Source: an uncultured Fidelibacterota bacterium (GTDB lineage Bacteria; Fidelibacterota; Marinisomatia; Marinisomatales; Marinisomataceae). Taken from it: DNA of 42,333 nt. The notes under the pieces are model-generated. The model saw only the letters and a list, made by a program, of their open reading frames with translations, was not told where the DNA came from and searched no databases. This document shows positions 1,652 through 3,548 of this stretch, one piece after another. Position numbers and translations under genes: made by a program. Where the stretch lies: contig CACOSI010000006.1 in the NCBI GenBank assembly GCA_902629855.1, positions 1 through 42,333 of the forward strand, written 5' to 3'. Each line of letters begins with the position of its first letter. Positions within the stretch are counted from its first letter, which is position 1.

Positions 1652-1725
1652 GGGCGATTAGCTCAGCTGGTCAGAGCGCCTGCTTTACACGCAGGATGTC
1701 GGGAGTTCGAATCTCTCATCGCCCA
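1652..1725 (+). tRNA. tRNA-Val (anticodon UAC)
   Basis: Complete cloverleaf: acceptor GGGCGAT (1652-1658) pairs with ATCGCCC (1718-1724) and the discriminator is A1725. The D arm is GCTC..GAGC. The anticodon stem CCTGC/GCAGG encloses loop TTTACAC with anticodon TAC at 1686-1688. The T arm is GGGAG-TTCGAAT-CTCTC. CCA is not encoded. The 3' half from the anticodon to one base beyond the discriminator recurs at 2449-2489 and 3316-3356, so this gene appears to be the target of repeated insertions. Confidence 0.98.
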
Positions 1726-1750
1726 CGGTTTAAGCTATAACTCGAGAAAG

Positions 1751-1779
1751 AAAAGGACTGCTTTGGCAGTCCTTTTTTT
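1751..1779 (+). terminator. Intrinsic terminator after tRNA-Val
   Basis: Stem AAAAGGACTGC (1751-1761) / GCAGTCCTTTT (1766-1776) with loop TTTG, followed by a T run. It separates the tRNA transcript from the secreted-protein gene that starts 16 nt later. Confidence 0.85.
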
Positions 1780-1794
1780 GTATATTTATTTTAT

Positions 1795-2343
1795 ATGAAA
1801 ATATTATTTAAAGTTATTTTTACTTCTCTGACATTTTTTTCTATTATCAACGCTCAATCACTTGCAACTCTAAAACTCCAGGTTCCAAATGATCAAATTA
1901 GAGTACAAATTCTTGCTGAGGGATCGAATGATCTTTTTAGAGATTCTTCAATTGAAAATACTATGAAACTTCAATTAAGAAGAAACAATATTGAATATTT
2001 TCGATCTAATAATGAAGTAGACAACCCTAGCTATCCCTACCTTTATATCAACTTACATGCAGATAAATTAAATTCTGGAGATGTTTATGGACAAATAAAA
2101 ATATCATTTAAAAGACATAGCCTTTTTAATTTAACTGTTCCAGAAATATATGATGAATCATCTAAGTTGAAAGATATAGTAAGCATGCCTGGAAAAGGAC
2201 CCTTTTTTAGTGTTGCTACCTGGAGTAGTGCTCAACTTTTTTATATTCCTTCGAGATATAATTATGAACAAAGAATCAAAGATATCATTACAGATTTAGT
2301 TGATGAATTTTCTGCATTATATATAGATGCAAATAATTTGTAA
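1795..2343 (+). CDS. Secreted hypothetical protein (cassette 1 cargo)
   Basis: I do not recognise this 182-residue protein. It has a clear Sec signal peptide (hydrophobic residues 3-18) with predicted cleavage after INA and Gln21 as first mature residue. The mature part is mixed alpha/beta and polar, without cysteines or repeats, so it probably lies in the periplasm or outside the cell. It is the only gene between the tRNA-Val terminator and the first tRNA fragment copy. No good Shine-Dalgarno is visible before the ATG. A function cannot be given. Confidence 0.75.
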   Translation: MKILFKVIFTSLTFFSIINAQSLATLKLQVPNDQIRVQILAEGSNDLFRDSSIENTMKLQLRRNNIEYFRSNNEVDNPSYPYLYINLHADKLNSGDVYGQIKISFKRHSLFNLTVPEIYDESSKLKDIVSMPGKGPFFSVATWSSAQLFYIPSRYNYEQRIKDIITDLVDEFSALYIDANNL

Positions 2344-2448
2344 ATAATCGGAAACACTCCCAAGTCTAAAAGTAATTGCTTAATTTATACCAACTATGCG
2401 ACAACTAAGTACAATTTGGGTGATTTTACGGCACAGACTTCCTTTCAC

Positions 2449-2489
2449 TACACGCAGGATGTCGGGAGTTCGAATCTCTCATCGCCCAC
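2449..2489 (+). repeat. Second copy of the tRNA-Val 3' half (att-like direct repeat)
   Basis: All 41 bases are identical to 1686-1726: anticodon, 3' anticodon stem, variable loop, T arm, 3' acceptor strand, discriminator and one further base. The 5' half is not conserved. GGGTGAT at 2418-2424 could still pair with the acceptor strand, but no D arm is recognisable, so this is not a working tRNA. The break falls in the anticodon loop, a known crossover site of tRNA-targeting tyrosine integrases. Confidence 0.95.
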
Positions 2490-2524
2490 TCTATCTATAA
2501 AGACCCAACATTAAGAGAGAGATT

Positions 2525-2549
2525 AAGGGATACTTCGGTATCCCTTTTT
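2525..2549 (+). terminator. Intrinsic terminator with UUCG tetraloop
   Basis: Stem AAGGGATAC (2525-2533) / GTATCCCTT (2538-2546) closed by TTCG, then a T tract. It lies 35 nt after the second tRNA fragment, mirroring the terminator after the intact tRNA. Confidence 0.88.
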
Positions 2550-2587
2550 GTAATTGATTTTTTAATAGATATTTTTGAAATTTGATT

Positions 2588-3208
2588 ATGAAATTTCTAT
2601 TAACAATTTTTTTACTACTATCTCCTGTATTAACCCAAATTAAAGCTACAACAACTGAAGGCGATAATGTACTTTTGAATGACGACGGAACATGGTCTTA
2701 TGAAAATCAAGTTGATATATCTTCTGAAGATCTAGGTATTTGGGAAGTTAAATATTTTGTTGATGATTTTGGAGACCCAACTAATGAAGGATATATTTCA
2801 TCGAATATTATCGATGGTACATTTAGTAATTCTGCAACCACAAACTCCAAACTCAAATTGTATTTTATTATTTCAAATGAAGATATTGGTATGAAATTAT
2901 TTGAATATGGTAGCAATGTTCTCAAAACAACTAGGAAAGTTGAGTATAAAATTATTTTTAAACACAATGGTGTAAGATTTGATAAACCTGTTTCTGGAGT
3001 TATGTATAGTGATAGATTATATATTGTAGACAATATCAACAGTTCTATGTCGTCTGATTTTTTTCGAGATCTTTTAAAACAAGGTGGAGACTTTAATTTT
3101 GTAATTACTGAATTAGGAAGCTATGCTTCCTCGTCTTATAAATTTAAATTTAATGCAGATGGATATTCTAATGCGCATAGCACTATATTCACTTCATCGA
3201 AAAAATAA
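2588..3208 (+). CDS. Secreted hypothetical protein (cassette 2 cargo)
   Basis: A 206-residue protein of unknown function. The ATG at 2588 is preferred over a TTG two codons upstream because it begins a normal signal peptide (MKFLLTIFLLL, cleavage after VLT, Gln17 first). The mature N terminus carries a VLLNDDGTWSY segment. Similar 'LxxDGTW' segments are common near the start of small secreted bacterial proteins. The rest is predicted beta-rich and has no cysteines. It shows no obvious sequence similarity to the cassette 1 protein, so the two units carry different cargo in the same position. Confidence 0.75.
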   Translation: MKFLLTIFLLLSPVLTQIKATTTEGDNVLLNDDGTWSYENQVDISSEDLGIWEVKYFVDDFGDPTNEGYISSNIIDGTFSNSATTNSKLKLYFIISNEDIGMKLFEYGSNVLKTTRKVEYKIIFKHNGVRFDKPVSGVMYSDRLYIVDNINSSMSSDFFRDLLKQGGDFNFVITELGSYASSSYKFKFNADGYSNAHSTIFTSSKK

Positions 3209-3315
3209 TCCTGAAAAACATTCCAAAATCTCAATAAAATTCACGAAATTGGTACGGATATCGGACGATAAATAGATATTCAGGGGCGTTTATAGATAGG
3301 AGACTTTCTTGCGTA

Positions 3316-3356
3316 TACACGCAGGAGGTCGGGAGTTCGAATCTCTCATCGCCCAC
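3316..3356 (+). repeat. Third copy of the tRNA-Val 3' half (att-like direct repeat)
   Basis: Forty of 41 bases match 1686-1726; the single difference is T to G at 3327 in the variable region. Identity continues for three more bases (GGT) shared with the intact tRNA but not with the second copy. Just upstream, TGCGT-ATAC-ACGCA forms a small inverted repeat across the breakpoint. As with copy two, the D arm and 5' anticodon stem are absent. GGACGAT further upstream only loosely recalls the acceptor strand. Confidence 0.93.
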
Positions 3357-3362
3357 GGTCCT

Positions 3363-3461
3363 ATGGATTTAGTAAGTATTATTATTTCAGTCGTTCTGTA
3401 CATAGTCATACCTGCAATTGTCTTTGTTATGGCAGTTATGTTAGATACAGATGAACCTTAG
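3363..3461 (+). CDS. Small single-pass membrane protein (32 aa)
   Basis: The short frame begins 7 nt after the third tRNA repeat and encodes one long hydrophobic segment (about residues 3-25, VSIIISVVLYIVIP...) followed by an acidic tail DTDEP. Composition and layout match small membrane proteins elsewhere in the window. No clear ribosome-binding site is seen because the repeat occupies that space, so translation is not certain. I know of no family. Confidence 0.45.
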   Translation: MDLVSIIISVVLYIVIPAIVFVMAVMLDTDEP

Positions 3462-3548
3462 TAAATATATTTAGTAGTGTGTTAGTATGTATATTATGCC
3501 CTATTAATAAATTTTTTTTTGTAGTATTTTTAGCGGGAGAAGGAAATC

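Follow-up and report, generated by a model that had tools for sequence, protein, structure and literature searches.

How a tRNA gene comes to be followed by repeated copies of its own 3' half, with one small gene in front of each copy, is the question raised by the locus described here. The window, i.e., the whole stretch of DNA analysed (42,333 nucleotides), is the whole of contig C6 of a Marinimicrobia (SAR406) genome, which has a size of 0.93 Mb and is 88% complete. The first-pass annotation had placed an intact tRNA-Val gene here, with two copies of its 3' half behind it, one of 41/41 at 2449 and one of 40/41 at 3316, and had explained them by serial insertion at the tRNA. The coordinates were confirmed by ARAGORN and BLAST, and the locus is composed as follows.

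1652-1726, plus strand: intact tRNA-Val(TAC), found by ARAGORN; the functional gene and putative attachment site (attL after insertion)
1727-1790, plus strand: head of unit 1 (GGTTTAAGCTATAACTCGAG...), common to units with unrelated cargo in genomes G015, G008 and G007
1748-1779, plus strand: intrinsic terminator in the head of unit 1, from the terminator scan (fold z -3.96)
1795-2343, plus strand: cargo of unit 1, an ORF for a 182-aa orphan protein with a signal-like N terminus and no Pfam match
2346-2448, plus strand: tail of unit 1, conserved in other units, that of G015 among them, despite different cargo
2390-2409, plus strand: tandem arm-like repeats CCAACTATG / ACAACTAAG with 11 bp spacing, from repeat analysis
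2436-2463, plus strand: core-like imperfect inverted repeat GACTTCCTTT ... GCAGGATGTC flanking the anticodon-loop sequence, seen in the sequence
2449-2489, plus strand: 41/41 copy of the tRNA-Val 3' half, putative attR of unit 1 (BLAST E 1.4e-17)
2490-2555, plus strand: head of unit 2 with an intrinsic terminator at 2525-2546, from the scan (fold z of the whole segment only -1.43)
2588-3208, plus strand: cargo of unit 2, an ORF for a 206-aa orphan protein with a signal-like N terminus
3216-3315, plus strand: tail of unit 2, a divergent member (tail model R1, 63 bits, E 1.6e-17), without a clear 11-bp-spaced repeat
3316-3356, plus strand: 40/41 copy of the tRNA-Val 3' half, putative attR of unit 2 (BLAST E 3.4e-15)
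3357-3529, plus strand: extra segment with a 32-aa ORF at 3363-3461, absent from the empty-site relative G022

The copied 3' halves comprise tRNA positions 35-75, with the first base at the anticodon, and they delimit unit 1 (1727-2489, 763 bp) and unit 2 (2490-3356, 867 bp). Chance is ruled out as the source of these 41-bp matches, since their E values are 1e-17 and 3e-15 in a 0.93-Mb genome. A search of the whole assembly with all 28 tRNAs for further 3'-half copies returned, besides those in the window, just one such fragment, 43 bp of tRNA-Arg(tct), split between contigs C14 and C5. The sizes of the units, as well as the presence of one terminator and one gene in each, agree with the annotation, and each of the two ORFs opens with a signal-like segment. 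Two intrinsic terminators, one per unit, were found in the two units against 0.7 expected. The ORF of unit 2 has an alternative start at TTG 2582, giving 208 aa instead of 206 aa from ATG. Synteny with G022 resumes 165 bp behind the last fragment (about 3365-3529), and the segment 3357-3529, on which the annotation is silent, is possibly an eroded third unit. Its 32-aa ORF is membrane-like; the DNA of this ORF recurs near tRNA-Val(GAC) of G022 in the opposite orientation (L068 6354-6434), and a match of lesser length lies close to tRNA-Ser(gct) of G008 (L069 4825-4872).

The cargo offered few likenesses. Among all units, cargo proteins showed no resemblance to each other at E<=0.01. The two proteins of the window (182 aa and 206 aa) had no counterpart in 23 congeners and matched no Pfam family, searches against PHROGs and a phage collection gave nothing useful for them, and their alignment-free structure prediction yielded no usable fold (pLDDT 31 and 38). 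Elsewhere, judged from family models, units carry a putative BamE-like protein (below the Pfam cut-off), a PEGA-domain protein, a TonB-receptor set and a LEM-3-like GIY-YIG protein, as well as a probable ABC-transporter-like set named from inspection of the ORFs.

The locus was compared in the 23 congeners (24 genomes including the source), where its order is lon, usually a membrane cupin gene, and tRNA-Val. No unit was present at tRNA-Val(TAC) in G022, G011, G004, G010, G012, G005 and G019, one was found in each of G015, G007, G018 and G016, two in the source genome and three in G008; in the remaining congeners the contig ends at the locus, or the stretch examined held no fragment. Number and content of the units thus vary among the 23 congeners (0-3 per site, 0.6-5.5 kb, unrelated cargo), and empty sites are present. 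Eleven complete units could be delimited at the TAC and GAC loci together; ten of them measure 0.6-3.4 kb, mostly 0.6-1.3 kb, and one 5.5 kb.

Three comparisons define the difference between filled and empty sites. Firstly, G015 and G019 share 99.66% identity along 5,858 bp, a tract whose first base is precisely that of the fragment; in this position G019 has an intact tRNA and no unit, the unit being present in G015 only. Secondly, G016 is filled and G011 empty, with a common flank of 90% over 1.8 kb. Thirdly, the site is empty in G022, which is the closest of the relatives compared here; identity is 84.5% upstream and 89% downstream. Identity between G015 and G019 changes at the tRNA itself, from 88.7% upstream to 99.66% downstream, which suggests an exchange of a long tract on one side of the tRNA, besides the insertion of a cassette. 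At the empty sites of G022, G019, G011 and G012 the next ORF lies a few to about 30 bp past the tRNA. The sites of G022 and G019 were folded and showed no terminator, the folding being no better than shuffled, so that insertion of a cassette would separate the next ORF from read-through of the tRNA.

Content is exchanged as well. Identity between G007 and G018 is 98.8% for a tract of 2,480 bp ending with the tRNA, and the two hold different one-gene units, encoding a 122-aa lipoprotein-like protein in G007 and the PEGA-domain protein in G018. Their T-stem alleles also differ (GCAGG/CCTGC and GGGAG/CTCTC, respectively). Three such alleles of tRNA-Val(TAC) occur, all fully paired, and in G008, G007, G018 and G016 the allele of the intact gene is not that of the nearest displaced fragment, as predicted for an inserted element importing its own 3' half. 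Some units are eroded: the three-gene block of G016 recurs in G018 and G007 minus its tail, and the third fragment of G008 is decayed.

Tandem direct repeats on one strand are also what segmental duplication would leave, if the tRNA 3' half and the DNA next to it had been copied without any mobility. However, the cargos of the two units are unrelated and absent from relatives, and near-identical genomes show empty sites and swaps, which makes this origin extremely improbable. The arrangement is neither fixed among relatives nor filled with homologous cargo, the two outcomes that the annotation had named as speaking against serial insertion.

The pattern is repeated at a second site, tRNA-Val(GAC), with the filled and empty pairs G010/G012 (a unit of 1,183 bp, flanks 92-96% identical) and G005/G016 (a unit of 1,272 bp). 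Both GAC units are detected by the tail model made from TAC units, with E values of 7e-9 and 5e-11, and the TAC unit of G018 has almost the same head as the GAC site of G007.

Cargo is never common between units, yet their ends are. Tails share 71-96% identity in pairwise BLAST; with the fragment included, the tail of unit 1 matches that of the G015 unit at 92% over 144 bp, and the tails of G016 and G018 match at 92% over 103 bp. The tail model, R1, matched 11 times across the order (130 genomes), and all 11 matches adjoin a tRNA-Val fragment. A more permissive search within the genus added three weak matches (E 0.001-0.004); one of the three is to the arm-repeat section of the head at the GAC site of G007. 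In most heads an intrinsic terminator follows the tRNA or fragment. The head of unit 1 is 87-96% identical to heads in G015, G008 and G007 over the first 50-71 bp, and this type (GGTTTAAGC...) has no obvious arm repeats. Many heads, especially at GAC, are about 240 bp long; GACGACAA recurs in them, and GACTACAAA or GGTATACAA occurs as a pair of repeats. Many heads also have arm repeats 11-12 bp apart. Several heads, such as those of G018, G007 and G022 at the GAC site, have no matching tail. A derivation of the tail from a degenerate tRNA 5' half was considered and dropped, as overall similarity was mostly no better than shuffled (P 0.02-0.97). The motif GGGTGAT lies at -30/-31 from the fragment in 8 of the 11 tails and could pair with AUCGCCC, the acceptor 3' strand within the fragment.

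The units end in tRNA 3' halves with arm repeats, and in all of them the fragment starts at the anticodon loop. Short direct repeats, two in number and with a spacing of 11 bp, lie in the tails some 60 bp away from the crossover region. Their summed score at lag 11 was 80, compared to 56.4 +/- 3.2 for shuffled sequences, and other lags were mostly at background, lag 10 being slightly raised; in unit 2 of the window the repeat is weak or absent. This statistic is a description more than an independent test, because the 11 tails are related by descent. More telling is the distribution of GACTACAAANNGACTACAA, which with at most one mismatch occurs at six places in 24 genomes, all at the ends of tRNA-associated elements, five of them at Val elements and one at the tRNA-Arg element of the source genome; the reversed control gave none. 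The junction of tail and 3' half in G018 and G016 reads GACATCCTTC-TTTACAC-GCAGGATGTC, with inverted arms around the anticodon loop which by inspection are complementary at 9 of 10 positions, and the arms are weaker in the units of the window. Core and arm repeats together resemble the attachment site of a tyrosine recombinase, a likeness drawn from sequence features.

Conserved ends permit another reading. In minimal mobile elements cargo is swapped by homologous recombination through the flanks, and DNA entering by transformation, vesicles or gene transfer could replace cargo here in the same manner, using the tRNA and the head and tail flanks. Heads and tails of 50-190 bp could act as short homologies, and a larger replacement beside the tRNA does occur, as in the pair G015/G019. 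A simple swap between flanks does not, however, yield tandem stacking with a displaced 3'-half allele, and the start at the anticodon loop in every unit, the inverted-repeat core and the 11-bp-spaced arm repeats also stand against it. We consider this explanation very unlikely.

Serial insertion at the tRNA, as put forward in the first-pass annotation, is supported by the empty sites with identical junctions and the swaps between near-identical genomes, and further by the exchange of 3'-half alleles, the unrelated cargo and the attachment-site-like ends. The units are therefore probably cassettes without an integrase of their own, which a trans-acting tyrosine recombinase would move at tRNA-Val. 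In such a cassette a conserved head with a terminator and often arm repeats would be followed by variable cargo, mostly one or two genes, and then by a conserved tail that closes with one half of the inverted-repeat core, which joins the tRNA-Val 3' half. An arm-binding, lambda-Int-like tyrosine recombinase supplied in trans would join the circular cassette and the intact tRNA at the anticodon loop. The incoming 3' half would restore the tRNA and the previous one would come to lie downstream, behind the cassette; the terminator of the head would block read-through from the tRNA. Repeated events would give stacked units with the newest nearest to the tRNA, excision would remove units, and erosion of the ends would fix or remove them. 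The anatomy of the units, the lack of a recombinase gene in them, the empty and swapped sites, the replaced 3' halves and the conserved ends around unrelated cargo are read from the genomes themselves; we infer the enzyme, the circular form of the cassette, the order in which units were inserted and the route by which they are transferred.

No recombinase gene and no Phage_integrase match was found inside any unit, and no tyrosine recombinase lies beside the array at the Val loci examined. Searches with PF00589 and PF00239 revealed no tRNA-Val-specific recombinase in the 24 congeneric genomes; Phage_integrase matches there are genes of XerC/D size and a few elements elsewhere, and serine recombinases occur in two genomes only across the genus. 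The tyrosine recombinase named as the agent in the annotation is thus suggested by the anticodon-loop core and the arm repeats, the enzyme itself not being found in these 24 genomes, either because its host element is rarely resident or because of incompleteness. In a viral collection the tRNA-Val 3' half retrieved just phage tRNA-Val genes or unrelated high-GC fragments, and two tail types used as queries retrieved no tails. No parental element at tRNA-Val was found in the order.

An island in G007:C1 (L118 4550-11220) occupies 6.6 kb at tRNA-Arg(tct) and encodes a 411-aa tyrosine recombinase, a serine recombinase and a ParB-like protein. Similar arm-like CTACAACA pairs are present at both of its ends, and none of the relatives of its integrase found order-wide and in IMG/VR is linked to tRNA-Val. 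The tRNA-Arg(tct) element of the source genome is split by contig ends (C14:5806-6571 and C5:48234-48748), and its head has GACTACAAACCGACTACAAA, like Val elements. In another Marinimicrobia family, G041:C27 (L139, 7,758 bp) has a terminal repeat of 86 bp that extends across a tRNA-Val 3' half, together with ORFs that are carbamoyltransferase-like, SGNH-like and TonB-receptor-like, and no integrase; it is an excised circle or else a single unit out of a tandem array.

The units could instead be residues left by deletion of larger integrase-bearing tRNA-Val islands, the stacking dating from old accretion at full size. CIMEs, the decay products of ICEs or IMEs, are formed in this way, and site-specific accretion is an established model for integrase-less elements that keep attL and attR (PMC5704250). 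Like CIMEs, Val units keep both sites, lack genes for integration and transfer, and stack in tandem at a tRNA 3' end (PMC5704250). Some units are indeed eroded (the blocks of G018 and G007 without tail, the third fragment of G008), and the tRNA-Arg island demonstrates an integrase-bearing element in the genus. For the Val units no trace of a parental ICE or IME appeared in the order searched, an absence that is compatible with such an origin. None of the 11 complete units keeps a recombinase, yet their ends are conserved around intact, changing and unrelated cargo. Recent gain or loss, as between G015 and G019 with 99.66% identity downstream, also involves whole small units. Decay from larger islands is therefore unlikely, and cassettes moved in trans are the reading retained here.

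Integron cassettes are small, mostly single-gene, and added serially at one end of an array. By functional analogy the Val units are alike in all three respects; unlike in integrons, there is no integrase (IntI) beside the Val array, and the site is a tRNA gene and its 3' half. Tycheposons were reportedly described by Hackl et al. in Cell in 2023. They are summarised, in the available parts of two later reports, as cargo-carrying, tRNA-targeted elements of ocean bacteria, 4-200 kb in size and with a tyrosine recombinase (PMC10872708, PMC11389934). As far as these summaries go, both insert into a tRNA gene, and part of the tRNA is found again at the far end; Val units encode no tyrosine recombinase, and 10 of the 11 complete ones are 0.6-3.4 kb, with one of 5.5 kb, compared with 4-200 kb (PMC10872708). 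The microcin H47 island of E. coli also lacks its own recombinase, and its excision and integration by trans-acting host proteins was shown experimentally (PMC3191183); it is 13 kb in size, occupies a different site and has a single cargo system.

The nearest likenesses come from other streamlined bacteria. In Ca. Actinomarinales, likewise streamlined and marine, the available part of the report describes small tRNA-targeted gene cassettes which leave a partial tRNA repeat and differ between genomes of >98% ANI (PMC7771536). Those cassettes lie within a cell-envelope island with five tRNAs, unlike the Val units, and common ends, arm repeats and one-gene stacks at single Val isoacceptor genes do not appear in that part of the description (PMC7771536). 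For Ca. Methylopumilus, the accessible text reports repeated tRNA-Lys ends at additive islands, similar to the Val locus in the multiple tRNA-end repeats, in content from 330 bp and one gene upward, and in mostly unknown proteins; the repeats are 20 bp, precede islands of up to 42 kb, and are given there without conserved ends per unit (PMC10872708). The annotation had regarded stacked single-gene units of this size as an apparently undescribed system, which is only partly right. The category is known and not new, because tRNA-targeted cassettes have been reported in other streamlined bacteria (the available parts of PMC7771536 and, for tRNA-Lys repeats, PMC10872708); the single-gene size and the recurring conserved ends are what is new. 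In the open-licence literature we met no description that combines single-gene units with standard ends around unrelated cargo, occurrence at two isoacceptor loci and the lack of a resident recombinase. We suggest tentatively, and with more doubt than confidence, a genus-wide system on two tRNA-Val isoacceptor genes, in which single-gene cassettes with standard ends, served by one family of recombinases in trans, would be shuffled between cells and play an integron-like role in these streamlined genomes, with the tRNA serving as the point of entry.

In streamlined ocean bacteria few mobile elements can be recognised, yet close relatives differ in gene content. At the tRNA-Val genes the unit of exchange can be one gene, with ends definable to the base, and near-identical genomes differ by exactly one unit. 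Because of such base-defined differences, the source of the recombinase, the travel of cassettes and the rate of turnover become testable, and the tail model R1 together with the 11-bp-spaced arm repeats provides a sequence model to find cassettes that annotation has missed.
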